A stretch of 26,493 bases of DNA from a virus. The stretch lies in the IMG/VR virus record IMGVR_UViG_3300031673_000407, positions 1 to 26,493 of that record; one strand, written 5' to 3'. The notes beneath the pieces were generated by a model. It ran no database searches. It worked only from the letters and a program-made list of their open reading frames with translations, and had not been told where the DNA came from. The position numbers and the translations under genes are program-made. This document shows positions 1-26,493 of the stretch, piece by piece; position 1 is the stretch's first letter; each line of letters begins with the position of its first letter.

Positions 1-1134
1 CTGCTGGAACGCAGGCTGGAAGCCTTCCTCCGAGCCCCACACGAGATTCATGCCGAAACCGTAGGATCCCCCGTACAGGTCATCACGACATGGAATGTCA
101 AAACCAGGCCAACGGGACTGGAGAGCCTCGACACCACCCTCCGTCTCTTCGGTCAGCTCGTCTTCGATCTCGGTTGCTACAGGCGTCACGTAGTAGACCG
201 CCACGACTCGGCTCTCCTCCACGTCCTCCGTGTACCGATACTGGTCGGTTGCCTGCATCAACCGGTCCTGCGGAAACGCCCCCGTCTGCATGTACTGGCG
301 TAGGATGTAGGGGAACTCCGGATCGTCCTCGAAGAGACGCAACGGGTCATTGAAATGATAAAAAGACTCCTCACCTATCAATCCGTACGGATCATCTGGA
401 TCAGCCTCTATCTCCCGATCACCGTACGAAAGAAGATCAGAGAGAGCATCCAGTATTTCCTCATCGCTGGACTCTACGGTGAGGCCCGCGTTGATCAGCT
501 CCCCCAGATGCGCCTCCATCATGTCCCAGACCATCTTCTCCGCGTCGTAATCGGTCTGAGGAGAGTAACCGGACATGTCCAGCGCAACGACAACGGGGTA
601 GTCGGTCACGAAGTATTCGCCGTCCGCGCCCTGCTCCGTGTACGAAGCGTTCACGCGGCCCACGGCGTAACTTGCGGCAATCTCCATGCTGCCCGTCGTG
701 TGGAATCCCGGGTACTCGACGACACCCCCGTACTGTTCGCTCGAAGGAATAGGAGGCTCCGCCATGAACTTGGCGATCCTCTTCATACCAGCAGCTGTGA
801 TGCCGTGAAGTTTCATCAGGCCTCTTCGTCCTCTTCGTCCTTCGTCTGATTCTCCCCCGTCCCCCTCGGCCTTCGCCTGATCCTCCATGTCGCTCAAGCG
901 ACTGTAGTAATCGGGGAACTCGACTAGATGATCGAGAGCGATCTCCAGGGCTAAGTCAGGGTCGTCAGTGTGCTCCATCTCGACCTGGATGCCTTTGTAC
1001 ACCTGCTTCAGACAGTGCTCGGAGGGCATAGACTCGTCGCCGTATCCGCCAGGTATCTGGTCGTCAGCGACGCTGCGCTTCGTCGTGAATGCAGCGATGC
1101 GACCGAGCGCCAGATTTGAGAGACCTTTTTTCAT
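1..1134 (-). CDS. Twin-leader protein: DUF5661-like domain plus second leader and long C-terminal domain (partial, runs off left edge)
   Basis: The frame is open for 378 codons from the ATG at 1134 (ribosome site TAGGAG) to the window edge. Residues 1-17 are a leader (MKKGLSNLALGRIAAF). Residues about 24-88 have the look of DUF5661, with an EMEHTDDP...DHL.EFPDYY.RL pattern. A basic linker (GRRGRRG) follows, then a second, different leader starts at residue 107 (ATG at 816, MKLHGITAAGMKRIAKF). The rest is acidic and contains FHTTGS..IAASYAVGR, faintly like the second motif of ADP-ribosyltransferases. Compared with the near-copy at 1815-2549, this gene has one extra base near 843. Without that base the first protein would stop at a TGA overlapping the ATG at 816. 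So this is either a recent fusion by a 1-nt insertion or a sequence error, and the second half may also be translated from 816. Function unknown; the open frame is certain, the domain labels are tentative. Confidence 0.8.
   Translation of the reverse strand, partial: MKKGLSNLALGRIAAFTTKRSVADDQIPGGYGDESMPSEHCLKQVYKGIQVEMEHTDDPDLALEIALDHLVEFPDYYSRLSDMEDQAKAEGDGGESDEGRRGRRGLMKLHGITAAGMKRIAKFMAEPPIPSSEQYGGVVEYPGFHTTGSMEIAASYAVGRVNASYTEQGADGEYFVTDYPVVVALDMSGYSPQTDYDAEKMVWDMMEAHLGELINAGLTVESSDEEILDALSDLLSYGDREIEADPDDPYGLIGEESFYHFNDPLRLFEDDPEFPYILRQYMQTGAFPQDRLMQATDQYRYTEDVEESRVVAVYYVTPVATEIEDELTEETEGGVEALQSRWPGFDIPCRDDLYGGSYGFGMNLVWGSEEGFQPAFQQ
816..819 (-). promoter_or_regulatory. Possible internal start (ATG at 816) opening the second leader
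   Basis: The ATG at 814-816 opens a full copy of the shared leader and is preceded by AAGAGGCCTG, a plausible ribosome site. In the ancestral frame inferred from the paralogue at 2216-2549 it would overlap the upstream TGA as TGATG, a usual coupled start in this genome. Confidence 0.45.
844..1134. repeat. 291-bp direct repeat, copy 1 (leader plus DUF5661 coding segment)
   Basis: This segment aligns without gaps to 2259-2549 with roughly 25 mismatches counted by eye (about 91% identity). The similarity begins at the start codon and ends at the acidic linker, so the duplicated unit is a protein module rather than a whole gene with its ribosome site. The differences cluster around 990-1035. Confidence 0.9.
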
Positions 1135-1145
1135 GATAGCAACTC

Positions 1146-1601
1146 CTACCCTTCAAACGTTCCAAAACCTTCATCTTCGACCCTTATCTGTTCAGCGGGA
1201 ATAGGCTCCGTCGCGTAGAAGTCGCAACTATGCCCTTGGTACGACAAAGGGTCCATTTGGAGATTGTCGATCTGTTCCGGAGTCAACTCGACTCGAAGGA
1301 TAGCTGCGTCCTCCTCCGCTTGTTCCGCCACCATCACCTGCCACTCGATTGCATTGTTCCAGTCAGCGCTCAAGAAGATGCGACCTGACGATTCAGAGGG
1401 GGTACCAAAAGTAGAACCGCTACCGACGACCAAACCCTCACGCAGTATCCGGTCTACCAACCGAAAAGGCGTGGCGTGGTAGAGCACGTTGTCCCCTCCA
1501 GCATCTTCATCATGACAAACACCAGAGTCGAGAACCTCTCTCGGCGTGATCATTGCAGCGATCCTCTTCATACCGGAATCTGAAATGCCGTGGAGTTTCA
1601 T
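1146..1601 (-). CDS. Leader-bearing ADP-ribosyltransferase-like protein
   Basis: A 151-residue protein starting at an ATG behind AAGGAGAAGG. Residues 1-15 are the shared leader (MKLHGISDSGMKRIAAM). The body resembles an ADP-ribosyltransferase/KptA-like fold: a first strand with YHAT (41-44), helix and LREGL (53-57), a second strand IFLS (75-78) followed by a helix with Ala84, strand ILRVEL (101-106), and an ending FYATEPIPAEQI (128-139), which matches the usual 'ipp..I' close of such domains. The catalytic set cannot be confirmed by eye. If active it would modify a host protein or nucleic acid using NAD. T4 Alt is a precedent for an ADP-ribosyltransferase carried in the head. The start of the neighbouring gene at 1134 lies 11 nt downstream of this stop. 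Confidence 0.72.
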   Translation of the reverse strand: MKLHGISDSGMKRIAAMITPREVLDSGVCHDEDAGGDNVLYHATPFRLVDRILREGLVVGSGSTFGTPSESSGRIFLSADWNNAIEWQVMVAEQAEEDAAILRVELTPEQIDNLQMDPLSYQGHSCDFYATEPIPAEQIRVEDEGFGTFEG

Positions 1602-1791
1602 CGTTTTGCCTTCTCCTTAAACCTTTGGTTCGATGGGTACCTAGGTGCCCGGTAGACTTATAAAGAAAATCATCTAAAAGATCTCCATGGCCTTCCATAA
1701 ATTCCATCTCGTAATCATCATATATACTTTGTCCTTGGACAGCTTTGGAGATTCTATGTATGCCGTTGTCCGAAATTCCATGAAGTTTCAT
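1510..1791 (-). CDS. Small leader-bearing protein, probably truncated, overlapping the next gene
   Basis: The ATG at 1791 (behind CGAGGATTG; a TTG at 1794 is also in frame) opens a clear leader, MKLHGISDNGIHRISKAV. About 45 further residues are acidic and of unknown function. The frame then runs 92 nt into the ADP-ribosyltransferase-like gene and encodes only an out-of-frame reading of that gene's leader. No other gene here overlaps that far in this region, so the original C-terminus was probably lost by deletion or frameshift. The body is also more AT-rich than its neighbours. It may still be translated; I regard it as a decaying member of the leader family. Confidence 0.45.
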   Translation of the reverse strand: MKLHGISDNGIHRISKAVQGQSIYDDYEMEFMEGHGDLLDDFLYKSTGHLGTHRTKGLRRRQNDETPRHFRFRYEEDRCNDHAERGSRLWCLS

Positions 1792-1814
1792 CAATCCTCG
1801 TACTCCGCGCTGCT

Positions 1815-2549
1815 CTAGCCCAGCGGCACGGAGCTGTTGGTAGAGATTTCTCCTGAGATTGCAGTCATTTCAGCTTGCCAACCAGACGAAAACGCATTGT
1901 AGGTTTGTTCGTCCATTAAGGTCACGTCTACGTCTATGCCGAGATCAGCCATAAGTTCAAGAATGTTAGCTTCGTTCGCGGCCTCTTGTACCGCGAACTT
2001 AGCTGCGAACCTTGCTACGTATATGGCCGTCTGCACGGGATCGATGGCCTGCGCAGGAGCAGCACCTGTCGCAGGATCGACACCTGTCGCAGGATCGACA
2101 CCTGTCGCAGGATCGACACCTGTCGCAGGATCGACACCTGTCGCAGGATCGACAGCCTGGCCCATTCTCCTGGAGATTCTCCGTATTCCCTGATTCGTTA
2201 TTCCACCAAGTTTCATTTGGTCCTCCTCGTTTTCGTCCTCTTCGTCCTCTTCGTCCTTGTCTGATTCTCCCCCGTCCCCCTCAGCCTTCGCCTGATCCTC
2301 CATGTCGCTCAAGCGACTGTAGTAATCGGGGAACTCGACCAGATGATCGAGAGCGATCTCCAGGGCTAAGTCGGGGTCGTCTGTGTGCTCCATCTCGACC
2401 CGGATGCCCATGTAGATTTGGCGAAGACAGTGCTCCGAAGGGAGCGAGTCGTCGCCATATCCGCCAGGTATCTGGTCGTCAGAGACGCTGCGCTTCGTCG
2501 TGAATGCAGCGATGCGGCCCAGCGCCAGACTTGAGAGACCTTTTTTCAT
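1815..2549 (-). CDS. Twin-leader protein: DUF5661-like domain, acidic linker, second leader, VDPATG repeats
   Basis: 244 residues. The first leader is residues 1-16 (MKKGLSSLALGRIAAF). Residues 24-87 are DUF5661-like (EMEHTDDPDLALEIALDHL, then PDYYSRL). Residues 95-111 are an Asp/Glu linker. A second leader starts at Met112 (MKLGGITNQGIRRISRRM), followed by five copies of VDPATG and a C-terminal region of about 90 residues rich in Ala and Glu, predicted helical. The second leader has its own strong ribosome site (GAGGAGGACCAA before the ATG at 2216), so a short product of about 132 residues may be made as well. The first half is a near-duplicate of the gene at 844-1134. Function unknown. Confidence 0.85.
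   Translation of the reverse strand: MKKGLSSLALGRIAAFTTKRSVSDDQIPGGYGDDSLPSEHCLRQIYMGIRVEMEHTDDPDLALEIALDHLVEFPDYYSRLSDMEDQAKAEGDGGESDKDEEDEEDENEEDQMKLGGITNQGIRRISRRMGQAVDPATGVDPATGVDPATGVDPATGVDPATGAAPAQAIDPVQTAIYVARFAAKFAVQEAANEANILELMADLGIDVDVTLMDEQTYNAFSSGWQAEMTAISGEISTNSSVPLG
2063..2152. repeat. Tandem repeat, five 18-nt units
   Basis: Five perfect or near-perfect 18-nt units encode VDPATG five times in the minus-strand gene at 1815-2549. Units are a multiple of three, so gain or loss changes linker length without breaking the frame. There are no spacers, so this is not a CRISPR array. Confidence 0.95.
2214..2228 (-). promoter_or_regulatory. Strong internal ribosome binding site before Met112 of the twin-leader gene
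   Basis: On the minus strand GAGGAGGACCAA precedes ATG (2214-2216), an ideal spacing. The purine-rich codons of the acidic Glu/Asp linker create the site, so a second, in-frame product starting at the second leader is plausible. Confidence 0.5.
2259..2549. repeat. 291-bp direct repeat, copy 2
   Basis: Partner of 844-1134, gapless with about 25 differences by eye. It ends exactly at the start codon at 2549; the upstream leader regions of the two genes are unrelated. Confidence 0.9.
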
Positions 2550-2559
2550 TCTGTCCCTC

Positions 2560-2991
2560 CTACTTCGGATAGAAGCACGCGGCCCAGCTGGAGTAGTCTT
2601 CCATCATGAAACCGTGCTGCTCCGCGAGCTGCTTCAGCTGGCCACGGTACACGTCCGAAAGACTAGGCTCGTCAGACTCGGGACTGAGAATGTCGTACCC
2701 TGACCCCTCGTAGATCAAAGAAACGCAGTCCATGTTGAGCATACCCTCGGAACCAAGAAACTCAGCCGTCTTCTCCGGAGGCCAAACCTCCACCTCAGCC
2801 AGCGGTTCGCCGTACTTTTTCCAGAAGTCTCGGGGGTCCTCGTCATCCTCCGGACCCATGAGGTGCTCGTTGGTTTCCTTCACCCACCGCTGGAGATCCT
2901 CCATGAGAGCCGCCTCTTCCGGAGTGGTCTCACGTCCGCCAACTGCCTGAGCCAGCCTACGGATACCTGCATCTGAAATTCCCTTTTTCAT
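2560..2991 (-). CDS. Leader-bearing protein of unknown function (143 aa)
   Basis: The start at 2991 follows GGTAGGAGGACAGA. Residues 1-19 are the leader (MKKGISDAGIRRLAQAVGG). The remainder is acidic with many aromatic residues (DFWKKYGEPLAEVEVW at about 53-68, SSWAACFYPK at the end) and shows no motif I recognise. No signal peptide or membrane segment is visible. It sits between two other leader genes with short gaps of 10 nt or less, consistent with one late operon. Apart from the leader it has no similarity to its neighbours. Confidence 0.8.
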   Translation of the reverse strand: MKKGISDAGIRRLAQAVGGRETTPEEAALMEDLQRWVKETNEHLMGPEDDEDPRDFWKKYGEPLAEVEVWPPEKTAEFLGSEGMLNMDCVSLIYEGSGYDILSPESDEPSLSDVYRGQLKQLAEQHGFMMEDYSSWAACFYPK

Positions 2992-3000
2992 TCTGTCCTC

Positions 3001-3408
3001 CTACCGTGGCCGTTTCTTTCCTGAGAAGGTCTCCGGTCCAATGTTGCTGTACTGAGACCTGATGGCGTCTGTAATCCTGCTGTAGACGTCCTCGTCGCTC
3101 TCGATCTCGTCGTATGTCCAGAGACGGACGTTCTCAAGGAGTACCCCGTCTTCTTCCTGATGCACCCTCTCGACGGTAACATCCCCGTGCGCGCCTCCGA
3201 TGTCAACATACGTGTCGTAGGACCCCTCATGCGGCTGAAGACCTTGGTACCGGACAGAGGGAACCAGGTACCTACCCTCTTCCTCCTGAACGACCTCACC
3301 TTCGAAGATGGCCGAATCCCAGACCTCGGGGTCTAACTCAGCCTGAGCACCCTCAAGCCATTGAGCGACCCTGTGAAGACCTGAAGCTGGTATCCCTTGA
3401 AGTCTCAT
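3001..3408 (-). CDS. Leader-bearing protein of unknown function (135 aa)
   Basis: The leader is a more diverged form, MRLQGIPASGLHRVAQWLEG. The body (residues 30-110) alternates short beta-type stretches (GRYLVPSVRYQGL, YDTYVDIGG, GDVTVERVHQEEDGVLLENVRLW), suggesting a small beta-rich domain, and ends in a basic tail (GKKRPR). I recognise no family. The ribosome site is weak (TATGGTGAA), and the start lies just after the stop of the structural gene at 3410, so translation may be coupled. Confidence 0.78.
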   Translation of the reverse strand: MRLQGIPASGLHRVAQWLEGAQAELDPEVWDSAIFEGEVVQEEEGRYLVPSVRYQGLQPHEGSYDTYVDIGGAHGDVTVERVHQEEDGVLLENVRLWTYDEIESDEDVYSRITDAIRSQYSNIGPETFSGKKRPR

Positions 3409-3409
3409 T

Positions 3410-4501
3410 TCACCATACTAAACTCAAAGGTTCAACCGTGTCAATAACACGAATCTTGAAAGTTTGACTGACGATGATGTACGCAAACGGGTCAGAGTTC
3501 TTCCATTCTGTAGCCACATAACGGCTGCCAACCCGGGCGCCATCGAGAATCTCAATGAAAGTGTACTCGCCTTTGATCAACTCCTGAAGACTGCCCAGTG
3601 TAATCCGTGGGTCGAACAACCCCAGACCCGCCGTCCAGTACTCCATGCCGTTCTCGAACGGAATGTCGCCGTACTCCTGCTTCTTGTACCCAGTCGACGG
3701 GGGCTCGCGCATCACGAGAATCCACGGGCCCATCCTGTACTCGCCGGTCACGCCCTCGCGGCTCAAGTCGATAGCCGCGTACCGAGCGCGAACGATCTCG
3801 AAGAAGGGGGACAAGGCAACGGCGTCAGAACGAGTCAGCGTCGCGCGGAAACGGATAGTACCCGACGCGGGGTTGGCGGACACCAGATTGCAGATCTCCG
3901 ACCAGGTCGTTCCGCTGTCCAACGAGTACTCGATCACAACGGACGTGGTGTAGGTGGGATCACGGGTAAACGCCTGGAAGTCAACCTCCCATGAGGAACC
4001 GACCGCCGTGCGCTCGAACACCTTGTCGCCACTCTCGATGGTCCCCGTCAGTGCGCCAGCCACCAGCTCAATCTTGGCGGACTTGAACCCGGAAGACAGC
4101 CGAACACTCGTCAAGGTGATGTCTGTGTCCGTCGTGCCCATCCACAGTGTGTTGTACCCGAACTTGAGATACCCCGGAACAACACCCACGCCGTGACACG
4201 CCGAGCACTTTCGGTCGGCCATCTGGTTGGATTCCTTGTAACAGCCGCACTTGGGACCGTCAGTCGCTCCTTGCCAAAAGTTTGCGCGAATACTACCGGC
4301 TAGGATCTGTTCGGTGAGAAGTGCGCGTTGACGGGCCTGCTCCTGCATGCCGTTGATGTGCTTGTAGATGTCGGGAGCCCAGTACCCTACAGCTAGTTGG
4401 CCCACGCCATGGCAACCTTCGCGAATAGCGCCGCAAGCGCTCTCAATCGAGTCGCCGCTGTCGCCACTGTCGCCGTTCCCCGGTGGTGTACACTCAGCCA
4501 C
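3410..4501 (-). CDS. Virion structural protein with Cys-rich zinc knuckle
   Basis: I favour a GTG start at 4501 (363 aa), which overlaps the upstream HTH gene by 8 nt; the frame is open further upstream but reads through that gene. An N-terminal helical part is followed by a knuckle, CGCY...CSACHGVGVVPGYLKFGY, of the CxC...CxxC.G.G type seen in some large-phage structural proteins. The remaining 240 residues are beta-rich, with sandwich-like stretches (VVIEYSLDSGTTWSEI, GTIRFRATL), and end in EPLSLVW. It is likely a virion component, possibly at the head-tail joint or baseplate. Assignment rests on composition and context, not on a named homologue. Confidence 0.65.
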   Translation of the reverse strand: MAECTPPGNGDSGDSGDSIESACGAIREGCHGVGQLAVGYWAPDIYKHINGMQEQARQRALLTEQILAGSIRANFWQGATDGPKCGCYKESNQMADRKCSACHGVGVVPGYLKFGYNTLWMGTTDTDITLTSVRLSSGFKSAKIELVAGALTGTIESGDKVFERTAVGSSWEVDFQAFTRDPTYTTSVVIEYSLDSGTTWSEICNLVSANPASGTIRFRATLTRSDAVALSPFFEIVRARYAAIDLSREGVTGEYRMGPWILVMREPPSTGYKKQEYGDIPFENGMEYWTAGLGLFDPRITLGSLQELIKGEYTFIEILDGARVGSRYVATEWKNSDPFAYIIVSQTFKIRVIDTVEPLSLVW

Positions 4502-4700
4502 AAATACGCCTGTCCATCCACTCAAACACACACTTACGCATAACCTTGTGTGGAGTGGATTCTCCGCTCTTCCAGCGGGCAACTGTCGGAAGGCTAACGT
4601 CGAGAGCGCGAGCGACTTCCTCGTCAGAGATATCGATCAGCTTTACACCGAGAGCAAACAGCTCCTGGAAGCCATCGTCTGCGGGTACGAGATATAACAC
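4494..4700 (-). CDS. Small helix-turn-helix DNA-binding protein
   Basis: A GTG start at 4700 sits 4 nt after AGGAGG, giving 68 residues. Residues 24-50 (ISDEEVARALDVSLPTVARW, then KSGESTP) are a clear helix-turn-helix of the XRE/Cro type, with the recognition helix at SLPTVARW. There is no other domain, so it may act as a dimeric repressor or activator. Its place inside a late structural operon is unusual; late expression could serve to switch off earlier transcription, but this is inference. The longer reading to 4772 overlaps the upstream gene and lacks a ribosome site. Confidence 0.75.
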   Translation of the reverse strand: MLYLVPADDGFQELFALGVKLIDISDEEVARALDVSLPTVARWKSGESTPHKVMRKCVFEWMDRRICG

Positions 4701-4708
4701 AAGTCCTC

Positions 4709-5122
4709 CTATCCAAACTGCAAGGCCATCTGAAGCGCCTCGTCCGTATTGTATCCTTCTTCGTGCCACCATACAATGTCAGTATTCTCGAAATCATTGA
4801 TGGACATGCCGATGGCTTCGAGCTTTGCCGCCAGCTCGTCCGCCCACGGTTGCATGTCCATGCGTGGCAGCACGATGCGCTTGGCGTCGTCCCACCAACC
4901 CGCCACCTTCTGAGACTCCTCAATGAGTTCGAGAGTCTCTATGTCAAGCTCCTCACCGTCCAGGTACTGATCCGCCAGAACACCGGCAATCCAATCTCCA
5001 TAGCCAGCCGCCATGAGAATATCGGAGATTCGCGAGCGTTCGCGCTCACGCTTCGTCCAGAAGGCTTCGCGTTGGGAAATAGCGATGCGGCGGATAGCAG
5101 AATCTGGGAGGGTTAGGATCAC
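4709..5122 (-). CDS. Protein with degenerate leader, unknown function (137 aa)
   Basis: A GTG start at 5122 overlaps the stop of the previous gene (TAGTG). The N-terminus, MILTLPDSAIRRIAISQRE, lacks the Lys/Arg and Gly of the consensus leader but keeps its ending (P-D-S-A-I-R-R-I-A). The rest is helical and acidic, with two Trp pairs (GWWDDAK, VVWWHEEGY-like near the C-terminus) and no motif I recognise. This is the most diverged leader in the window, useful for judging which positions matter. Confidence 0.75.
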   Translation of the reverse strand: MILTLPDSAIRRIAISQREAFWTKRERERSRISDILMAAGYGDWIAGVLADQYLDGEELDIETLELIEESQKVAGWWDDAKRIVLPRMDMQPWADELAAKLEAIGMSINDFENTDIVWWHEEGYNTDEALQMALQFG

Positions 5123-5454
5123 TAGAGCGCCTCGTCCTGAGAAAAAGACTGAGCAACCTCATCTAGCTGCGCCTGCAATTCGGGATCTTCAGGCTCAATG
5201 TTCACTTGAGTTTGATCCCCGCTCGTGTAGGTATACCGGACACCGCCCTCTCCGTACTTCACAACGAGTACGTCATTTACCGCCAATGCAAACTCCCTGA
5301 CCTTATCCTTGTCCTGGTTTCCGGGAAAGTTCATGCCACCAAGCGAGATAGGCGGCCCATAAAACTCAGGCCCAAACACAACAGCGACCCTCGGGTCCGA
5401 CTCCTGCGCCTGAGCGATCCGCCGAACACCTTCATCTGAAATTCCACGTTTCAT
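5122..5454 (-). CDS. Leader-bearing protein of unknown function (110 aa)
   Basis: The start at 5454 follows TAGGAGAAGCTG. Residues 1-16 are a consensus leader (MKRGISDEGVRRIAQA). The body has a Gly/Pro-rich stretch (VVFGPEFYGPPISLGGMNFP at about 25-44), two probable beta strands (NDVLVVKYG, VRYTYTSG) and an acidic helical C-terminus. No family recognised. The 68-nt gap upstream holds only a 17-codon reading frame (5464-5517), which I do not call. Confidence 0.8.
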   Translation of the reverse strand: MKRGISDEGVRRIAQAQESDPRVAVVFGPEFYGPPISLGGMNFPGNQDKDKVREFALAVNDVLVVKYGEGGVRYTYTSGDQTQVNIEPEDPELQAQLDEVAQSFSQDEAL

Positions 5455-5522
5455 CAGCTTCTCCTACTGGTCAGTATTCTGGCCAGTACACGACATAGTG
5501 CGCGCTATTCTGTTCATTGGCC

Positions 5523-5693
5523 TCATCTTCGCTCCAGCAATTCTTCAAGCAGCTCGTCGAGAGGTTTGCCATTGCCGTTGTCGTACTCGGTGATCAATTG
5601 CTGCCACTTCCCGTCGTCGAAAAGGTTGGACAAACGTTGGTTGTCCTTTTCAGCAGGATCGAAGAGATCGGCTTCTATTCGCTCAGAATCCAT
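5523..5693 (-). CDS. Small acidic protein (56 aa)
   Basis: I place the start at the ATG at 5693 (MDSERIEADLF), 4 nt after the stop of the upstream structural gene; the longer reading to 5810 lies wholly inside that gene. The product is highly charged and helical, ending in LDELLEELLERR, and lacks the shared leader. It could be a small assembly factor or chaperone, but nothing in the sequence proves this. The ribosome site is weak (CGAG), so coupling to the upstream gene is likely. Confidence 0.6.
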   Translation of the reverse strand: MDSERIEADLFDPAEKDNQRLSNLFDDGKWQQLITEYDNGNGKPLDELLEELLERR

Positions 5694-5697
5694 GTGA

Positions 5698-6603
5698 TTA
5701 ACTCGACATGAACAAGTTACGAAAAAGGGCCCCAGGTGGCGCTGAAGAGAGGAGCATTGAAAAGGACATGTCAATTCTCGCTTCCAATGCAATCGTCCCG
5801 CTGTCCACAAAATGCCTCTTGAAATTTGGTATTGCAGCGTCCAACTCCGCCTTCAAATGACCAAGGTATCCAGCCAATGGCTGGGCATGAGCCAAAACGA
5901 AACTGTGATTTGAATCCGAGTAGTTAGGAACGTCCGTATCAATAGAGAAGAGGAGCTGCGAAGTAATCGCCTGATACAGTGCCGCCTTGAGCAAGATGTT
6001 GGAATACGTCTCAATTGGAAAGTAATCCAATGTCGTGAACGATGGATACGGCTGCGCCTCATTGATTAGATGCAATCCCATCTTCAGGAACATCGCCAGC
6101 ATGCCATCGGTGTAACCAATGTAGCAATACTTCTCCGGAAGATTGGGCTTCACAGTTTTGTCGAGCAACAGCCGCAGCGGAGGAAACAGCGACAGCGTCC
6201 TGGGCGACACCACTTCAACCACTTGCGTCCGGTAAACATCCTCAGCCTCGACGTTCTGCCGGGCATGCCAGTTGAAGAGTACCGACCTCGTTGTATCGGT
6301 TTCGTCCGTCTCGGTTCCAAACTTCAAGTAGTACTTACCCGTGGTCTGCTTCTTGATCCTACGATCCGCAGGTGCCTGTGTAGGCCAGTACGACTCCGTA
6401 TAGATCGAAGTCCCCGCAACGGTCATCACTTCCAGCTCCAGCTCCCCGTTCGGTTCTCCATCAGAGCCCATCGTCGCATCTATATCGATGGCCGCGCCAC
6501 TCACGTCCTGAAGTTTGATGTCCACACGACGCAGGGAGTCCAGGCGAACAAGTTCGATCATGTTCGCGACGCTCGGCGCTTCTACTCCAGGCTGAATGAT
6601 CAT
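5698..6603 (-). CDS. Probable virion structural protein (301 aa)
   Basis: Translation starts at 6603 directly behind a short gap. The N-terminal third (residues 20-110) is beta-rich (VDIKLQDVSGAAIDI, GELELEVMTVAG, GKYYLKFG), the middle carries VEVVSPRTLSLFPPLRLLLDK, and the C-terminal half is helical with IDTDVPNYSDSNHSF. This mix resembles uncharacterised structural proteins of large phages, probably head-tail joining or tail components. No enzymatic motif is visible. It lies among other virion genes. Confidence 0.62.
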   Translation of the reverse strand: MIIQPGVEAPSVANMIELVRLDSLRRVDIKLQDVSGAAIDIDATMGSDGEPNGELELEVMTVAGTSIYTESYWPTQAPADRRIKKQTTGKYYLKFGTETDETDTTRSVLFNWHARQNVEAEDVYRTQVVEVVSPRTLSLFPPLRLLLDKTVKPNLPEKYCYIGYTDGMLAMFLKMGLHLINEAQPYPSFTTLDYFPIETYSNILLKAALYQAITSQLLFSIDTDVPNYSDSNHSFVLAHAQPLAGYLGHLKAELDAAIPNFKRHFVDSGTIALEARIDMSFSMLLSSAPPGALFRNLFMSS

Positions 6604-6606
6604 GGT

Positions 6607-6993
6607 CTAGGTCCCTAGGATGATAACGACAGCCTCGCCAACATCCACGACACCCGCCGTCAATTCCAGGGCAGTAATGCTCCCGCCCATGATCATGACG
6701 AAACCTTCGGCAGCCAGGGCGAATATGTCAGAACCGCCATTGAGCTTGTACGTGATGGCCTCGTCCACGCCGATGTACAGAAAATCTCCATCGGTCAACG
6801 AACCGAAGTTCACTGTCTGTACAGCGCCTGCCGCGATCCTGTACTCGAACTTCGTCTTCTCGTAGTACGTGAGCTGTGGGCCCGTCGTGGACGTGGGCAA
6901 GGTTGTCGGTGTTCCAATGAGGACCGGCGTCGTGCTCCCACCCGGGGCGTTGGGCATGGTCATTGTTCCTGCAACTGTTAGCGTCGATGACAT
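6607..6993 (-). CDS. Small beta-rich probable virion protein (128 aa)
   Basis: The ATG at 6993 follows AAGGAGTGAGAA. The protein is rich in Thr, Gly and Val with few charges: a Pro/Thr-rich N-terminal 40 residues, then alternating strands (VQTVNFGSLTDGDFLYIGV, AITYKL, GFVMIMGG, AVVIILGT). That profile fits a small decoration, fibre-base or tail-associated protein. No family recognised. Confidence 0.6.
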   Translation of the reverse strand: MSSTLTVAGTMTMPNAPGGSTTPVLIGTPTTLPTSTTGPQLTYYEKTKFEYRIAAGAVQTVNFGSLTDGDFLYIGVDEAITYKLNGGSDIFALAAEGFVMIMGGSITALELTAGVVDVGEAVVIILGT

Positions 6994-6996
6994 TTC

Positions 6997-7455
6997 TCAC
7001 TCCTTGCCATACGCGTCAGCCAACGCGTAGCTTATACCTACTGAAAGTCCGGCCCCCACAACGAGTCCTACACCCGTCCAGAGAATCGGGGACCGATACC
7101 ACTTCTTCGTTTCAGCGAGCTGCTTCTCATAGTACTCGGCCTGGGCTTCAGTGACGACCACCTGATCTTGAAAAGCTTTCTGCCACTTATCCGAAATCTG
7201 CTCCGTAACCTCAATATCCTGCCGCAAGAGAACAACGAATTCCTGCTGTCTCGCGATCTTCAACTCGTACAACCCCATCTCCTTGCGCAGGAGAGGGATG
7301 CCCCTCAGGTCCTTCAGCATGCGCGTAGCGGCGTCGTCGGGGAACCAGTAGCCTGCTACCCCCTCGTGCTCCAGCTCGACGCTCTCGGGCTCTTCAGCGA
7401 GCGCCTGGGGCGACATAAGAGTGAGCAGGAAGACTATGGGGAGGAAGATGCGCAA
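6997..7455 (-). CDS. Exported coiled-coil protein with C-terminal membrane anchor, spanin-like
   Basis: A TTG start at 7455 gives a typical signal peptide (MRIFLPIVFLLTLMSPQALA, cleavage after ALA). Residues 45-118 form a long coiled coil with EEVQ-type heptads, followed by WYRSPILWTGVGLVV and a C-terminal transmembrane helix (about 121-145). An exported coiled coil between two hydrophobic ends resembles proteins of phage lysis cassettes that span the periplasm, but no lipobox Cys is present, so a classical o-spanin is not supported. The ribosome site is modest (GGGGATC), and the TTG abuts the stop of the preceding gene. Confidence 0.65.
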   Translation of the reverse strand: MRIFLPIVFLLTLMSPQALAEEPESVELEHEGVAGYWFPDDAATRMLKDLRGIPLLRKEMGLYELKIARQQEFVVLLRQDIEVTEQISDKWQKAFQDQVVVTEAQAEYYEKQLAETKKWYRSPILWTGVGLVVGAGLSVGISYALADAYGKE

Positions 7456-7821
7456 CTAGATCCCCGTCCTGTAGTAATCGTCGACCCCGCGCTCTTCGAT
7501 GGCCTGAACCGCATCCATGATAACCTCCAGAGGCTCGTCCTCCATGTTATCCCAAGCACCGAAGCCCTCAGCGTCGTTGATGTGCCACTCCTCAACCCCG
7601 TACTCCTCAACGAACGCATCGATCTCTGCCTGAACCTCTTCCAGAGATTTCCCCTTCAGCTCGATGAACACCACGGCGTAGGTCCCCTTGGGCACGCGCC
7701 CGACCACGCGTATCTGAGGATCGACTCTCCTCCACGACTCTTCCCCCGGCATCTCGTAGTCGTCGTCGCCCATCACCTGCGCGATCCTCCGCATACCCTC
7801 ATCTGAAATTCCGTGTCTCAT
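7456..7821 (-). CDS. Leader-bearing protein of unknown function (121 aa)
   Basis: I start at the ATG at 7821; the frame is open to 7926 but that part lies inside the upstream gene. Residues 1-16 are a consensus leader (MRHGISDEGMRRIAQV). The body has strand GTYAVVFIELKG, helix SLEEVQAEIDAFVEEYGV, strand EEWHIND and a final helix EVIMDAVQAIEERGV: a compact alpha/beta domain perhaps of ferredoxin-like topology. Function unknown. It sits between two membrane-protein genes of the possible lysis group. Confidence 0.8.
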   Translation of the reverse strand: MRHGISDEGMRRIAQVMGDDDYEMPGEESWRRVDPQIRVVGRVPKGTYAVVFIELKGKSLEEVQAEIDAFVEEYGVEEWHINDAEGFGAWDNMEDEPLEVIMDAVQAIEERGVDDYYRTGI

Positions 7822-7822
7822 T

Positions 7823-8173
7823 TTAGTACCCCAATCTTTTGAATTCATCGAGCTTCTCTTTCGAAGAGAGCCTGTCCACTTCGCTGCGAGAACGCTTGAC
7901 CGTGTCCTTGAGCTTCTCGATCGCAACGTCTATCCCCTCAATATCTGTTTCGACCGACCCCTCGCGCTCACGAATCATCTCACGCCGGCCTTCGAGCCTG
8001 CCGATCTCACGCTGTGCTCGCTTCACGGTGAGCTTGTGCTGCAGGATCTGGCTCTTTCCCAGCTTCCCCGAGTACTGCGCGGCCAGAACAGCACCGATCA
8101 CGATGGCGGCGCCGCTGACGAACCACTTCCAGTTCGTACGGACAAACCGCCAGGCTCTCTTCAACCAGGTCAT
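7823..8173 (-). CDS. Membrane-anchored coiled-coil protein (116 aa), inner-spanin-like
   Basis: An N-terminal basic segment (MTWLKRAWRFVRTNWKW) leads into one transmembrane helix (FVSGAAIVIGAVLAAQY, residues 18-34), then an 80-residue charged coiled coil to the C-terminus. This N-in topology with a periplasmic coiled coil is the architecture of Rz-type inner spanins, and it lies near a holin-like gene and the exported coiled-coil gene at 6997. Other membrane-tethered roles are possible. The ATG overlaps the stop of the upstream gene (TGATG). Confidence 0.62.
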   Translation of the reverse strand: MTWLKRAWRFVRTNWKWFVSGAAIVIGAVLAAQYSGKLGKSQILQHKLTVKRAQREIGRLEGRREMIREREGSVETDIEGIDVAIEKLKDTVKRSRSEVDRLSSKEKLDEFKRLGY

Positions 8174-8511
8174 CAGTACTCTTCTCCACCTTCCATGAAG
8201 TCTTGAAACTCCATGTAGCTGTCCAAGCTCATCTCCTTGGCAATCGTGAACTGCACCTTGAGGGCTAGATCAGGACGTCCCAACTCCCCATCAGAAACGC
8301 GAACCTCGGTCTCGTCCCCACGAGGAGCCTCTACGTGTATGGTAGCGAGAGGGTAGGTCTGCTCCAGGAAGTCCTGAATCTCCTCATCAGCAATAGCGGG
8401 TTGTAGGTCTCTCCCCGGCCACACCCACAGCTCGCGAATCTCGCTCTCCTCCTGAGCTTGAACAACCTTCGCGATCCTGCGTATGCCTTCGCTGGTGATT
8501 CCGCGCCTCAT
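8173..8511 (-). CDS. Leader-bearing protein of unknown function (112 aa)
   Basis: The ATG at 8511 follows GATGGAGGTTTCGA and overlaps the upstream stop as ATGA. Residues 1-16 are the leader (MRRGITSEGIRRIAKV). The body contains WVWPGRDLQP, a helix IQDFLEQTYPLATIHVE and a strand ALKVQFTIAKEM, ending in an acidic tail (MEGGEEY). No family recognised. Confidence 0.8.
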   Translation of the reverse strand: MRRGITSEGIRRIAKVVQAQEESEIRELWVWPGRDLQPAIADEEIQDFLEQTYPLATIHVEAPRGDETEVRVSDGELGRPDLALKVQFTIAKEMSLDSYMEFQDFMEGGEEY

Positions 8512-8732
8512 TCGAAACCTCCATCTACCGAGATATCCCACATCTGCATGATATGGTCCAGGTTGGCGTTCGCCTCCTCGAAGCTCATGGCCTTGATCAG
8601 CTCGTCCACCAGGTCTTCGGCACCCATGTGCTGCAAGATGAGGTCCACCTTGGCGAACGTCTTCTCATCCGAGGCAGCTTCGAGGTTCTTGGCAATTCGG
8701 TACATACCGTTGTCTGTGATTCCGCGTTTCAT
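8508..8732 (-). CDS. Leader fused to a small helical phage domain (74 aa)
   Basis: The ATG at 8732 follows CCAGGAGGTGTACTAGA; the longer reading to 8765 has no support. Residues 1-16 are the leader (MKRGITDNGMYRIAKN). Residues 24-70 (ILQHMGAEDLVDELIKAMS, then ANLDHIMQMWDI) resemble a short helical domain that I recall as common in phage and bacterial hypothetical proteins, where it occurs without this leader. If so, this is direct evidence of a leader added to a pre-existing domain. Confidence 0.8.
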   Translation of the reverse strand: MKRGITDNGMYRIAKNLEAASDEKTFAKVDLILQHMGAEDLVDELIKAMSFEEANANLDHIMQMWDISVDGGFE

Positions 8733-8733
8733 T

Positions 8734-9240
8734 CTAGTACACCTCCTGGCTACGATCCCGTTCATCCATTTCCGTAATCACAAGAACCCGGTCAGTCGCC
8801 TCGTTGGCAACTTCTTCGATGTTCAATAGCACAACCCCGTACTTCTCTGACATGGCATGGGACATCATGTCTAGCTGGCTCTCTAGCTCGTCGCGAAGCT
8901 CCCTAATGAAACCAGCCTCGTCCAATTCCGCCTGAGACGTAAGAACGTTGTGTAGGTCTCGCGCTCCGTAGCTCACGAGATCGTCAATGTACTCACCAAC
9001 CTCGACGACTACCGCGTCCTCCGCGTCCACGTCCGACATGTCGATCCCGCGCGTGCGCAGTACCTCTTCGACCGCACTCGTGAAAAGGTAACGCGTCGCG
9101 TCCGACAAGGCGCTCACAAGAGCCTTGTACAAAGAGTCATCAGGAAACGCAGGCCCCTCTTGCGCCCAGTCGGGTGTCATCTGCGACTGCACGAGAGTCG
9201 CAATCCTCCGCATACCCTCATCTGGAATTCCACGTCTCAT
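8734..9240 (-). CDS. Leader-bearing helical protein (168 aa)
   Basis: The ATG at 9240 overlaps the upstream stop (ATGA). Residues 1-18 are the leader (MRRGIPDEGMRRIATLVQ). The remainder is almost entirely helical and acidic (for example YLFTSAVEEVLRTRGI at about 49-64, then EVGEYIDDLVSY and ELRDELESQLDMMSHAM), with no Cys, signal peptide or membrane segment. It may form a helical bundle. Function unknown. It is the first leader gene transcribed after the capsid block. Confidence 0.82.
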   Translation of the reverse strand: MRRGIPDEGMRRIATLVQSQMTPDWAQEGPAFPDDSLYKALVSALSDATRYLFTSAVEEVLRTRGIDMSDVDAEDAVVVEVGEYIDDLVSYGARDLHNVLTSQAELDEAGFIRELRDELESQLDMMSHAMSEKYGVVLLNIEEVANEATDRVLVITEMDERDRSQEVY

Positions 9241-9560: not shown

Positions 9561-9568
9561 AGCGTCTC

Positions 9569-11072: not shown

Positions 11073-12344
11073 CTACTTCTCGCCCTTCGCGCAGGCGCGA
11101 GCGTTCGCGATCACGAAACCTACCATCTCGATGAACGCCCAGCCCTTGACAGTCTCCTGGTGGGAGTACTTGTTGTAGGGCTCGCTGAACAGCTCGATGC
11201 GGATCCCCATCTCGCCCATGTAGTCGGCGCCGGTGGTCGCGTAGAAGGTCCCCGGAGGGATGACTTCCTCGACACCGGTGCCAGCGGCGGTCAGGATCTG
11301 CGCGTTGAGGACGTTGCCGATGTAACCCGCGAGGATCAACTCGCGCTCGGTCACGGGATCGACAGCAGTCGACATCGTCTTCACGATGTCAGACAGCTCG
11401 GCCCTGGAGATGAGGAAGTTCTCCACCATCAACCTGTGCCGCTCGACCTGGAACCTGACGTCCTCGAAAGCCCCGATGCCGAGGGTCGCGAACGTGGTCA
11501 CTGCGTTGTCCGTCTGGGCCGCCTCGTCGATGAGCGAGATGGCAGCCTTGTCCTCCTGAAGCTCGATCTCCTGGCGGGCCGTATCCTGCGCCCGGTCAAG
11601 AACATCGAAGTTCATTTGGTAGATGTCCATGATGTCGATGGACGGGAACGAAGTGACCTTCCACTCCGGAGGAGTGATCCACTTCGTTTTGATGCGCGAC
11701 TCGGGGGACTGGCCGTCCTGCCCCACAACCCACGCCGTCGAACGGATGTCCAGCGGGATACGGAACAGCTCGGCCTGCGCCAGCTTCCGGACCCGATAGA
11801 CCTTGCGCGCAAAGCCCTCGTAGTCGAGGATCGCCTTGATCGGGAGCGCCAGCTCCTGACCGACGATGTGGAAGCCCTGACCAGTGGGATCCTGGAGCGC
11901 CGCGCCGAGCACGTCTCTCCGAGCTTCCTTCGAGATACCCTCGGACTCAGTGTCGGGGCGGTAGAAGGAGAGCGCCTGAGCGTTCTTCTTCGTCACCTCG
12001 TTCATCAGTTGATGAATCTGAGTCATGGCATCGCGCTTGTCCCACGCGTTGGTCTCACCGCGCTTGTCGAACATGCGCCGGTCGGTGCGACCCGCAGTCC
12101 TCCCACGTGAAGTCGGGGAGTCATACCGCTGGGGGTTGAAGGTTCCATCACCCTGACGGAGGCTCTCGTCCTGCTTGCTGGCAAAACGACTCCGGGGGCG
12201 AACCGCCATACGCTCCTGCGCATTGGGCTGCGGGGCAGCCTGACGCTGGGCCTGACGGTTCGTGGCCTGACCACCCTGCGTCCTCCGAGCGGACTGCGCG
12301 GAAACGGGGCGGCGATTCTTGCTGATGTCTCTATACGGATTCAT
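11073..12344 (-). CDS. Major capsid protein, HK97-fold
   Basis: 423 residues, ATG at 12344 behind AAAGGAGCATAGCG. The N-terminal 90 residues are disordered, basic and Gln/Arg-rich. From about residue 145 come features of the HK97 fold: HIVGQELALPIKAILDYEGF, the E-loop/P-domain stretch around VTSFPSIDIMDIYQMNFDVL, a long helix RQEIELQEDKAAISLIDEAA, and a C-terminal A-domain with ERELILAGYIGNVLNAQIL and VKGWAFIEMVGFVIANARAC. It forms the icosahedral shell. Context (protease, scaffold-like, decoration, capsid) supports the call. The basic N-terminal extension may be cut off during maturation. Confidence 0.88.
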   Translation of the reverse strand: MNPYRDISKNRRPVSAQSARRTQGGQATNRQAQRQAAPQPNAQERMAVRPRSRFASKQDESLRQGDGTFNPQRYDSPTSRGRTAGRTDRRMFDKRGETNAWDKRDAMTQIHQLMNEVTKKNAQALSFYRPDTESEGISKEARRDVLGAALQDPTGQGFHIVGQELALPIKAILDYEGFARKVYRVRKLAQAELFRIPLDIRSTAWVVGQDGQSPESRIKTKWITPPEWKVTSFPSIDIMDIYQMNFDVLDRAQDTARQEIELQEDKAAISLIDEAAQTDNAVTTFATLGIGAFEDVRFQVERHRLMVENFLISRAELSDIVKTMSTAVDPVTERELILAGYIGNVLNAQILTAAGTGVEEVIPPGTFYATTGADYMGEMGIRIELFSEPYNKYSHQETVKGWAFIEMVGFVIANARACAKGEK

Positions 12345-13174: not shown

Positions 13175-15175
13175 CTATAGGCCTTGAGCCCTATTGAGTC
13201 GATTCATGCGACGACCCAAGTGGGTGCTTCCTCCAAGCGCACTGCGAAGAGCGGTAGTTTCCATGTTCTGTACGGGGCTGGATGCAGGAGCCCCTCTGTT
13301 TCCGTCTATCTCGAAATTCCCCTCAGCGGCCTCGCGCCTGACGCGGTCGGAACGCTGGGAAGAACGTCGATCACCTGTCGAAGCGATGCGGTCAACCGGC
13401 AGTGGAACCAAGGCCTTCAGATCGGCCTCGGCATCCGCCAGATACGCATCGTCTCTTCCCATAAGGTCAGCGCTCTTTTCCAGAAGCGCCTTGATGAAGT
13501 TGTCGTGACCCTCGCTCACGATGAGTTCGGTCAGATCGATGGCAGCGGCCAGGTCCATGCCGCTGAATGCGTCGCCGTTGCTGAACAGGATGTCGGGGTC
13601 CGCCAGGACATCGACAGCCGCAACCTTGAACGGGTGCTCGTCGTGGTTGAGGAGCATGCGGGTGGCCGCAACGCGCATGGCCTTGGTGAACTTGCGTACG
13701 AACGCTTCCTTCTCCTCCAAGACCCGTGTAGCAGCACGCTGCTCGTAGAGCTTCTTGAAGTTGGTGTGCGCGTTCCGAATCACGTCATCACCAGCCGAGA
13801 GCACATCGCCCTCACCGGTGCCGTGCTGCTCCTGGGAGTTGGTGCTGGCGTCATCCTTCGAGTCCATCGAAGGCTTATTCGGTTTCATCTCGGCGCTGAC
13901 ATTCTCGGCGTCGTCCAAGATGTCGTCCTTGGCTTCCTTCAGCCGACGCTCGTACTCCAGACGAGCACGCCGCAGTACGGCCTGGCGCCGCGCGGTCACG
14001 GTGTCGGGCTTCTCGCGAGTGTCGGTATCGTTGTCTTCTAGCACTGTGGTCTCGTCAGCCTCGTGCTTGTCCTGGGTATCCGTCTCTTCATCGGCGGTGA
14101 CAGGATCGTTCTCGGGCGGAACCTCTTCTGCGTGGTCCAGCTCGACGTCGTCATCGACACCGGCGATCAGCAGCTTGGCGTTACAGAACGCTGCGGCCTT
14201 GGCAAACCCCTCGTAAACCGCTAGACCGTAGATCCGGTTGGCGAGCCTGCGAAGGGCTTCACGGTTGGTGCGAAGCTCCGGAGACGGAATCGCGTGAAAT
14301 ACGGGACCATGGTCCTCATGCTGCGCAACGAGAGTTCCACTCTTGGTGATAGCGATCTTGATCTTCTTAGCTCTGGCCGACATCGTTGTGTCCTCCGAGG
14401 CCATCGAGGGGCCTTCCGTGTCGTCGCTGTCTTCGAGGCCCATTTCGTCGGCAGTTACAGGCTCGCCGTCGCCGTGAGCCTGCTCTTGCAGGTCAGAAAT
14501 GTCTCCATGGTCTTTCGCCTGAGCGCGCCGCACGAGAGCCTCACGCTCCTTCTTCAGCTCGTCCAGGCCCTCGGGTGGACCCTTGGGCTTGTCACCCATC
14601 GGGGGCTTCTTATCGCCCATCGGGGGGCCCTTGGGCTTGTCACCCTTCAGTCCGTCGTCGGGTCCGTCCGAAGGACCGTCCATCGGGGGCTTGCCGTCCA
14701 TCGGTCCGTCCATCGGGGGCTTCTTGTCGCCCATCGGGGGGCCCTTGGGCTTCTTATCGCCCATCGGGGGGCCCTTGGGCTTGCCGTCCATCGGTCCGTC
14801 CATCGGGGGCTTGTCCATCGGCGGCTTGTCACCGCCCAGCTCCATCCCATGCTCCCCAGCCTCCTCGTCCTCCGACTCGTGCTCCTCATGCTCTTCGTGA
14901 TCGGACTCCCCGCCCAGGTCACCCTCGGACTTCATGAAGTCTACGAGAACGCTGTACGCGGTATCCGCATCCGGAGCCTTCTCCAGCTCCATGAGGACTT
15001 GCTCGAAACCAGCTGGAGCCGACATGGCGGTGCGGTTGAGCACCGACCGGCGAACGAGATCCATCGTCTGCTTCTCGATCTCCGCTTGCTCCGTGGTCGA
15101 AAGCTTGATCTTGCCCTGGCTGTGAAGATCAGCAACCGTCTTGAAGAGTTGGTACCGCTGAGTAAAAGTTGACAT
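13175..15175 (-). CDS. Scaffold or head-core protein with acidic and Pro/Gly/Met/Asp repeats (666 aa)
   Basis: The ATG at 15175 follows TTAGGAGAACGGTTG. Residues 1-85 are helical. Residues 87-108 are almost all Glu, Asp and His. Residues 116-203 are low-complexity repeats of KPPMDGPMDG and KPKGPPMGD units. The rest alternates acidic linkers with helical parts, ending in a basic tail (SGLGRRMNRLNRAQGL-like). Place between the prohead protease and the capsid gene, and a charged, repetitive, mostly helical sequence, fit an internal scaffold or core that the protease would degrade. It is larger than most scaffolds, so it could also be a lasting internal protein. Confidence 0.7.
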   Translation of the reverse strand: MSTFTQRYQLFKTVADLHSQGKIKLSTTEQAEIEKQTMDLVRRSVLNRTAMSAPAGFEQVLMELEKAPDADTAYSVLVDFMKSEGDLGGESDHEEHEEHESEDEEAGEHGMELGGDKPPMDKPPMDGPMDGKPKGPPMGDKKPKGPPMGDKKPPMDGPMDGKPPMDGPSDGPDDGLKGDKPKGPPMGDKKPPMGDKPKGPPEGLDELKKEREALVRRAQAKDHGDISDLQEQAHGDGEPVTADEMGLEDSDDTEGPSMASEDTTMSARAKKIKIAITKSGTLVAQHEDHGPVFHAIPSPELRTNREALRRLANRIYGLAVYEGFAKAAAFCNAKLLIAGVDDDVELDHAEEVPPENDPVTADEETDTQDKHEADETTVLEDNDTDTREKPDTVTARRQAVLRRARLEYERRLKEAKDDILDDAENVSAEMKPNKPSMDSKDDASTNSQEQHGTGEGDVLSAGDDVIRNAHTNFKKLYEQRAATRVLEEKEAFVRKFTKAMRVAATRMLLNHDEHPFKVAAVDVLADPDILFSNGDAFSGMDLAAAIDLTELIVSEGHDNFIKALLEKSADLMGRDDAYLADAEADLKALVPLPVDRIASTGDRRSSQRSDRVRREAAEGNFEIDGNRGAPASSPVQNMETTALRSALGGSTHLGRRMNRLNRAQGL
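14567..14830. repeat. Imperfect tandem repeats coding for Pro/Gly/Met/Asp/Lys-rich segment
   Basis: Interleaved imperfect units code for KPPMDGPMDG, GKPKGPPMGDK and related blocks on the minus strand (residues 116-203 of the scaffold-like protein). The DNA repeats are long enough for slippage or recombination to change the copy number. Confidence 0.9.
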
Positions 15176-15186
15176 CAACCGTTCTC

Positions 15187-25666: not shown

Positions 25667-26493
25667 CTAGACCACACCTGTTGGTAAACCGCCGCCAGAA
25701 GGAGCTTCGATACTGTCGCCCATGGCACCGCCGCCATCGGCGCTGCCTGGCGGACGTGAGGCATCGTCCATACCCCCACCGCCTCCGCCCAGTTGTAGGC
25801 CACCAGCCCCACCTGCGCCCGGAGGTTTGGCGGCGGCTCCCGGAGGCTTAGCGCCAGATCCCGGAGCCCCGGGAGGCGTTGCCTGGGGTGGGGCGTTCTT
25901 TTGCTCATACTCCGCGAGCTGTGCCTTGCCCAGGGTCTTCTCCTTCATTTCCTCTTCCGTCTTGAACTCCTTGAGGCTCTTGTCCAGCTCGTCCTGCCAG
26001 TCGATACCGACAGGAGTTGCGACAGTGGCCTTGGAGAGCTTCAGGCCGAAGCCTTGCTCCAGCATTTTGTACGCGTTGAGGATGTCGAGGTCCACAGAGG
26101 GATCGAGCTTGTTCTTCCACTTGATGGTGGGCATCAGAATGAGATTTTGCTCCTGGATCTCCTGGGCCGTCCGCTTGATGCGGTACTTGTGGTTGACCTC
26201 GCTTGGAGAGGAGGTGGTCCATTCGTTGATCTCGGAGATGGGGCGGAAGAACTTGGGGTAAAGCCAAACGCTCTCCAAATGTTGTCGGAGGGATAGGAGA
26301 CGGCGAAGGAAGACCTGTAGTCCGCTCTTTGAGCTAGCATACGTGCTCTCCCCCGTCATGAACGCCTTGGATAACCCAAGGCCCAAGAGCTTGACGCGCT
26401 CGATGACGTCGTGCTCCTTGCTGATAGAAATAGCGCGGTCTTGATTACCCCAGCTTTCAAAGTTGACTCCGTAATGATAGATTAACCAAGAAT
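25667..26493 (-). CDS. Portal protein, C-terminal part (partial, runs off right edge)
   Basis: The frame is open for 274 residues from the window edge (no start in the window; the TTG at 26386 is just an internal codon). It reads IYHYGVNFESWGNQDRAISI and then KEHDVIERVKLLGLGLSKAF, followed by SKSGLQVFLRRLL, PTIKWKNKLDPSVDLDIL and GFGLKLSKATVATPVGIDW. This crown/wing pattern is that of large-phage portal proteins, which form the dodecameric DNA entry port. The last 85 residues are a Gly/Pro/Ala-rich tail (GGAGGLQLGGGGGGMDD), probably disordered. The terminase would be expected upstream, outside the window. Confidence 0.8.
   Translation of the reverse strand, partial: SWLIYHYGVNFESWGNQDRAISISKEHDVIERVKLLGLGLSKAFMTGESTYASSKSGLQVFLRRLLSLRQHLESVWLYPKFFRPISEINEWTTSSPSEVNHKYRIKRTAQEIQEQNLILMPTIKWKNKLDPSVDLDILNAYKMLEQGFGLKLSKATVATPVGIDWQDELDKSLKEFKTEEEMKEKTLGKAQLAEYEQKNAPPQATPPGAPGSGAKPPGAAAKPPGAGGAGGLQLGGGGGGMDDASRPPGSADGGGAMGDSIEAPSGGGLPTGVV

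Follow-up and report, generated by a model that had tools for sequence, protein, structure and literature searches.

Why do genes with different products begin with one and the same peptide of about 15 residues? The question is raised by the window, the whole stretch of 26,493 nucleotides of viral DNA analysed here (IMGVR_UViG_3300031673_000407), for which the first-pass annotation had counted 14 copies of such a leader. All of them (14/14) were confirmed in position, on the minus strand and with a start codon at each. The genes and open reading frames (ORFs) that carry them are given below, together with a holin-like gene that one of them overlaps.

8734..9240, minus strand: leader gene, 168 aa with an acidic body, overlapping the holin-like gene by ATGA; MRRGIPDEGMRRIAT
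9237-9614: holin-like gene (match to phrog_1299, E 0.003)
8508..8732, minus strand: leader gene, 74 aa, with a relative of its body at G008 45750; MKRGITDNGMYRIAK
8173..8511, minus strand: leader gene, 112 aa; ATGA overlap with the leader gene 8508..8732; MRRGITSEGIRRIAK
7456..7821, minus strand: leader gene, 121 aa; weak match to a McrBC-inhibitor family (phrog_3151, E 2.7e-4) and also to phrog_2059, anti-restriction (E 0.047); MRHGISDEGMRRIAQ
5122..5454, minus strand: leader gene, 110 aa; MKRGISDEGVRRIAQ
4709..5122, minus strand: gene with a degenerate leader and a GTG start, 137 aa; VILTLPDSAIRRIAI
3001..3408, minus strand: leader gene, 135 aa; MRLQGIPASGLHRVAQ
2560..2991, minus strand: leader gene, 143 aa; MKKGISDAGIRRLAQ
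1815..2549, minus strand: leader gene with a DUF5661 domain (PF18905, E 3.8e-14); MKKGLSSLALGRIAA
2216, inside ORF 1815..2549, minus strand: second leader, preceded by a ribosome-binding site of its own; MKLGGITNQGIRRISR
1510..1791, minus strand: leader ORF, possibly frameshifted, whose 3' end crosses the 1601 leader out of frame; MKLHGISDNGIHRISK
1146..1601, minus strand: leader gene, 151 aa; ART/KptA-like motifs recognised only by eye; MKLHGISDSGMKRIAA
1..1134, minus strand: leader ORF, a paralogue of the 2549 gene fused to the 816 leader gene and cut by the contig end; MKKGLSNLALGRIAA
1..816, minus strand: leader gene; body family also present in genomes G001, G005, G007 and G015; MKLHGITAAGMKRIAK

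The leaders at 816 and 2216 lie inside longer ORFs (816 within the one starting at 1134). Both are probably real starts, since AGGAGG stands just upstream of 2216 and a TGATG stop-start in the other frame is found at 816. The first-pass description of the bodies as otherwise unrelated is correct for most genes and fails for the pair at 1134 and 2549, which match at 67-69% over 117 aa. Relatives of the 816 protein occur in genomes of the clade described below, and none were found among annotated phages. Peptide-pattern searches of viral contigs confirmed no relatives of the 816 or 1601 proteins, AlphaFold2 gave unusable models for both (pLDDT 49 from three sequences and 38 from a single sequence, respectively), and a literature search on DUF5661 yielded nothing.

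The leader was detected without a supplied motif, through an unsupervised all-against-all comparison in which similar N-termini with dissimilar bodies were counted. The window gave 25 such pairs vs 0.2 in residue-shuffled N-termini, and 36 vs 0 at a looser threshold; in PaBG, Erwinia Y3 and Rctr197k the same test was near background (observed/expected pairs 6/3.2, 6/2.4 and 4/3.0, respectively). Even the degenerate leader at 5122 reached a profile score of 16, and the highest internal score in other ORFs was below 15 (about 241,000 residues scanned), full leaders at internal positions being only second starts in fused ORFs or mis-called starts. Amino-acid identity is 53% across 12 leader columns vs 10% in the body columns that follow. 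DNA upstream of the leader genes is unrelated except for purines resembling a ribosome-binding site, so the shared element runs from the ATG to about R-[IVL]-[AS]-x. Where two leaders encode an identical residue, 55% of the codon pairs differ synonymously. The codons and the unrelated upstream DNA thus bear out the earlier proposal that selection acts on the leader peptide. Some leaders in G001 are near-identical in DNA although their bodies differ, as might be expected if the leader had arisen through repeated duplication of gene starts and mattered little as a peptide, for instance as a favourable translation-initiation context. Such an origin is very improbable given the unrelated upstream DNA, the residues kept despite synonymous change, the retention of the motif between genomes that share 70-86% capsid-protein identity with the window, and the association of the leader with acidic bodies.

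The leader was found on 56 non-redundant ORFs in a clade of large uncultivated phages, with contigs of up to 212 kb, defined by a common major capsid protein. When three strict DNA patterns were compared with 2.9 million viral contigs, matches were confined to contigs of this capsid clade, and the same strict patterns had no match in about 85,000 bacterial and archaeal genomes. A wide occurrence in genomes without capsid genes, which the first-pass annotation had named as contrary to packaging, was thus not seen with these patterns. In PaBG, Y3 and Rctr197k (about 720 kb), the leader profile had no match at a score of at least 13 and the N-terminus comparison found no analogous leaders. Targeted literature searches found no description of this leader, and no phage of the clade was found to have a virion proteome on record. 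Restriction to a clade would, taken alone, fit any clade-specific partner as well as the head. Leaders are slightly more similar within a genome than between genomes (p 0.002; p 0.03 with duplicates removed), and in G015 a single divergent version, MKFFL[DN]NSNYKRIAEV, stands on two different bodies, both as expected for a lineage-specific partner.

The phage of the window itself encodes a prohead protease, recognised by profile, and a putative scaffold, in the following head module.

11073..12344, minus strand: major capsid protein (phrog_2522, E 1.3e-56), with a basic N-terminal arm that reads NPYRDISK in the window copy
13175..15178, minus strand: probable scaffold, judged by position and composition and conserved beside the protease; a single conserved island, EALVRRAQAKD, within a low-complexity stretch
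15187..16104, minus strand: prohead (head maturation) protease (phrog_18299, E 4.8e-32; invariant H107, H111 and S183)
25667..26491, minus strand: portal protein, partial (phrog_16240, E 1.3e-30)

In the window, the leader genes share the strand of the capsid gene and lie downstream of it; holin-like and weakly spanin-like genes stand between them, and some leader genes overlap a neighbouring gene by ATGA. In the window and G008, leader genes sit within the head gene block (a head/lysis block in the window). Proximity to the protease, which the first-pass annotation had proposed to test, is not general: G001 has its leader cluster at 164-170 kb and its capsid gene near 60 kb, the main clusters of G005 are distant from the capsid genes, and those of G003 are scattered over four places. 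These remote arrangements would suit a leader that recruits new proteins to a clade-specific structure or enzyme of the infected cell, such as a replication compartment, a transcription complex or a membrane site, rather than to the head; lineage-specific versions of the leader suit any common partner. We consider such intracellular docking unlikely, because of the head-block location in the window and G008 and because an antirestriction protein is most useful when already present at DNA entry. In addition, a tubulin homologue, the only marker of nucleus-forming phages looked for, was absent from the five records searched.

The bodies behind the leader point to early action in a host. A complete ArdA antirestriction domain (E 5.8e-34) begins at residue 28, after the leader, in a G008 gene that lies downstream of a capsid gene at a distance of about 4.5 kb. 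Other leader proteins carry DUF5662 from residue 22 (E 9.9e-26), DUF7249 from residue 21, a GNAT (acetyltransferase) domain from residue 33, HAD_SAK_1 (E 2.4e-17) or, by profile, a ParB-like domain; ART domains were read from motifs by eye only, not by profile. Leader proteins are mostly short (median 135 aa) and show no more than one recognised domain, although a few look multi-domain (e.g. G001 167469). Their bodies are strongly acidic (charge per residue -0.143 vs -0.033, p 1.1e-19) behind a basic leader (+0.14). On the evidence of these domains, the bodies are effectors, several of known counter-defence or host-modifying types. Several resemble enzymes potentially harmful to the producing cell, and the leader is in principle removable, so that it could serve to inhibit the effectors before its removal; the presence of the same leader on unrelated families, including ArdA, makes this highly unlikely.

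We propose, with a probability of roughly 0.7, that the leader is a capsid-targeting sequence which loads effectors into the head for injection with the DNA. This reading, already put forward in the first-pass annotation, is favoured by the capsid-clade restriction, the head/lysis context in the window and the effector domains; general nearness to the protease did not hold. This short basic peptide is probably a helix and would dock the acidic proteins on one shared partner in the assembling prohead; the scaffold or the capsid interior is the probable partner. Once packaged, the docked cargo would reach the next host together with the DNA, as early-acting effectors that may include antirestriction, acetyltransferase, phosphatase-like, ParB-like and probably ADP-ribosyltransferase proteins. 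Late expression, presence in heads, the docking partner and injection are steps that we infer.

The leader would be analogous, with no homology implied, to the capsid targeting sequence of T4 (IPI-III and Alt). Both are short N-terminal peptides common to different proteins, both systems have a prohead protease, and an antirestriction protein and an ADP-ribosyltransferase are among the targeted cargo of T4 (PMC9026906, PMC5694885). The two peptides have no visible resemblance, as judged without alignment, and putative cargo types are far more numerous here than cargo types in T4. The literature describes the internal proteins of T4 as basic (PMC9026906), whereas the leader bodies are acidic; this difference and the remoteness of the G001 leader cluster from the capsid gene were both counted against head cargo. 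In P1, an N-terminal signal of at most 30 residues in DarB brings antirestriction cargo, and also a reporter, into the head, but no N-terminal consensus was found for the Dar proteins (PMC9024508), whereas one consensus spans dozens of proteins here. SPN3US and phiKZ, also large phages but of another capsid clade, have many head cargo proteins whose N-terminal propeptides are removed by the prohead protease, some paralogues having identical N-termini (PMC5694885). Their propeptides are mostly longer than 100 residues.

If the leader is removed, the prohead protease may cut at the R-[IVL]-[AS] motif or directly behind it, and we regard this motif as a candidate cleavage site. No protease motif is common to all leaders, and in P1 DarB, which has an N-terminal targeting signal, cleavage is not reported in the portion of the source consulted (PMC9024508). 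A capsid-targeting leader that is never removed, serving as a packaging signal only or being active also in the new host, is thus conceivable but doubtful: the sharp end of conservation behind R-[IVL]-[AS]-x is what a processing boundary would produce, and the scaffold has a similar conserved island, R-x-A-Q. RIS/RFAS motifs are present at the capsid N-terminus, and most capsid proteins of the clade have an N-terminal arm reading NPYKRIA/NPYKRIS or a close variant; the resemblances of scaffold and capsid to the leader are weak. That the leader copies this arm, with cargo using the contact or protease recognition of the shell and acidic bodies lying among basic arms, is an improbable version of head targeting. 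Two other cleavage signals were considered and set aside. A short site ending in E, as in SPN3US and phiKZ, is not consistently present, AQE following some leaders and missing after others; internal sites in long leader proteins were unconvincing, RxA-type motifs being about twice background in only 3-8 cases.

Polyvalent proteins, which are predicted to be packaged in virions and injected, include ART, GNAT, ArdA and ParB-like domains (Iyer et al. 2017; PMC5512222, PMC9503650). This repertoire overlaps with that of the leader proteins (ArdA, GNAT and ParB-like by profile, ART by motif), but polyvalent proteins combine 2-15 domains per polypeptide, whereas here mostly single domains each carry the common leader. 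Rctr197k, the closest annotated relative, is without the leader and has similar domains fused in two polyvalent proteins, both of more than 2,000 aa; the domains in proteins of this size include GNAT, in one encoded between terminase and portal, and DUF5661. Effector domains would thus be held mostly in separate small genes here, with an address on each, and be fused in the leader-less relative, which suggests two solutions to one problem.

If head targeting is correct, one peptide would mark the injected proteome of a phage from sequence alone, as a recognisable targeting code on far more proteins than in T4. Such a short tag would be worth trying for loading proteins into phage heads. Each leader-bearing gene would be a candidate injected effector, most of them without a named family, and the leader would offer a direct route to new counter-defence proteins.

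The 26.5 kb IMG/VR fragment carries a run of head genes on the minus strand, and after the major capsid protein comes a block holding the leader genes:

Minus strand, portal, partial
15187-16104, minus strand, head maturation protease
13175-15178, minus strand, probable scaffold
12360-13136, minus strand, further head-region protein
11073-12344, minus strand, major capsid protein

All fourteen N-terminal leaders listed in the first-pass annotation were found, each at its start codon, and the head maturation protease does lie upstream on the same strand. The leader genes, downstream of the capsid gene and on its strand, have holin-like and weakly spanin-like genes among them, and some overlap a neighbour by ATGA. 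The gene directly 3' of the capsid gene (10117-10959) encodes an N-terminal RRXRR domain (PF14239, E 1e-9) and is kept throughout the clade sharing this capsid protein. In three related loci (L006, L010 and L014), the portal gene is interrupted, past residue 55-62, by ~1.4 kb that may represent an intein or homing element; the visible part of the window portal is uninterrupted.

Selection acts on the peptide, as had been proposed. Among 13 well-formed copies, residue pairs agree in 53% of cases over 12 leader columns versus 10% in adjacent body columns, 55% of identical-residue codon pairs in those 12 columns differ synonymously, and the upstream DNA is unrelated between copies. What is conserved is thus a ~14-16-residue peptide, with the consensus M-[KR]-x(1,2)-G-[IL]-[STP]-D-x-G-[LIMVF]-x-R-[IVL]-[AS], in which D and the second G are less strict. 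In a comparison of N-termini across all ORFs starting with ATG, with no motif given and residues 21-33 required to be dissimilar, the window yielded 25 similar pairs versus 0.2 in shuffles; the leader-less control phages PaBG, Erwinia Y3 and Rctr197k gave 6 versus 3.2, 6 versus 2.4 and 4 versus 3.0, respectively. A 12-column leader profile had no internal match of at least 15 in ~241,000 residues of other ORFs, and none of at least 13 at the start sites of these three phages.

Other shared or repeated sequences were seen. Two large PaBG ORFs (223921 and 227065) have the common N-terminus MLSLIPRLAPWPL and differ beyond it. In the clade genome G007 (IMGVR_UViG_3300005613_000019), many small proteins at ~78-88 kb start MKNLK[EK]EIRDQV and consist of RDQVWxQV-like repeat units; they form a further family that has an N-terminus in common, not related to the leader. 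Within window leader gene 2216, a tandem repeat (2050-2160) encodes VDPATG five times. An acidic repeat lies at 816-845, where the ORF starting at 1134 appears shifted relative to its paralogue 2549; an alternative frame would finish in TGATG at the 816 start.

The leader extends from the window to a clade. Twenty-three related loci were found with the capsid protein, on contigs up to 212 kb, and ~1 Mb of them contained 64 leader sites (56 non-redundant), counts that depend on a profile seeded with clade leaders; the unsupervised comparison and its controls are independent of it. Strict DNA leader patterns, which divergent forms escape, matched among all viral contigs only those of this clade, and one such pattern had no match in ~85,000 bacterial and archaeal genomes. 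The genomes G007 and G015, at 68-70% capsid identity, have homologues of the 816 body that start MKFFL[DN]xxNYK[KR]IAE, a version also carried by a second, different body in G015. Leader identity is 55% within genomes versus 50% between them (p 0.002; p 0.03 once identical cores are removed). Further acidic or head-region genes of G001 (53 kb, 56.8 kb and 99-100 kb) have degenerate leader-like starts, such as MKRGFLEGAEVRMAS before DUF5661, which makes the leader count a minimum.

Among the bodies, ArdA was recognized in G008 protein 44953, from residue 28 on (E 5.8e-34), and others matched DUF5662, HAD_SAK_1, DUF7249, GNAT and ParB-like profiles; window bodies matched DUF5661 and, weakly, a McrBC inhibitor. 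The ArdA, DUF5662, DUF7249 and GNAT domains start at most ~20 residues past the leader, which is therefore an extension added at the N-terminus. Putative ART-like motifs read by eye, e.g. VLYHATPFRLVDRILREGL in 1601 and FHTTGSMEIAASYA in 816, were confirmed by no profile or model. The 56 bodies are acidic in every genome (mean net charge per residue -0.143; 86% below -0.1), versus -0.033 and 12% for 92 conserved small non-leader G001 genes (p 1.1e-19, which overstates independence, some related or nested bodies being counted more than once). The leader itself is at +0.14, and the capsid N-terminus, over 60 residues, is basic, at +0.03 to +0.33. As to what the charge may mean, acidic cargo would stay free of packaged DNA, and proteins of the ArdA type are known to mimic DNA.

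The leader genes are close to head genes in the window and in the similarly arranged G008. In other members the layout differs: the G001 leader cluster is ~100 kb away from the capsid gene, that of G005 is near 85-101 kb, and G003 has leader genes at four places. Given these other arrangements, late expression can be argued, from position only, for the window/G008 type only.

In T4 and P1, antirestriction and ADP-ribosylating proteins are brought into the head by short N-terminal signals (PMC9026906, PMC9024508), and a signal of this type best fits what is seen here. Head targeting, as the first-pass annotation suggested, is the most likely function (probability about 0.7); for the cleavage it also envisaged, the chances are roughly even. 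R-[IVL]-[AS] closes the leader; in the scaffold a single island of comparable make-up is conserved, reading R-R-A-Q-E in several copies; and NPYKRIA/NPYKRIS stands at the start of many capsid proteins and at ~1.6% of other N-termini. Noticed post hoc, these resemblances may serve as leads only. The likeness of the leader to the T4 sequence is, so far, one of analogy.

Rctr197k, the closest annotated relative (capsid identity 62%), is without the leader and encodes two proteins of >2,000 residues: Rctr197k_045, between terminase and portal, with a GNAT domain, and Rctr197k_173, with InPase, DUF7178, 2H and DUF5661 domains. ParB-like, HAD-like and ART-like stretches were also seen by eye. These large proteins match the description of polyvalent proteins by Iyer et al., which are predicted to be injected (PMC5512222). 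In the clade, a comparable set of effectors seems to be distributed over separate genes that share one address.
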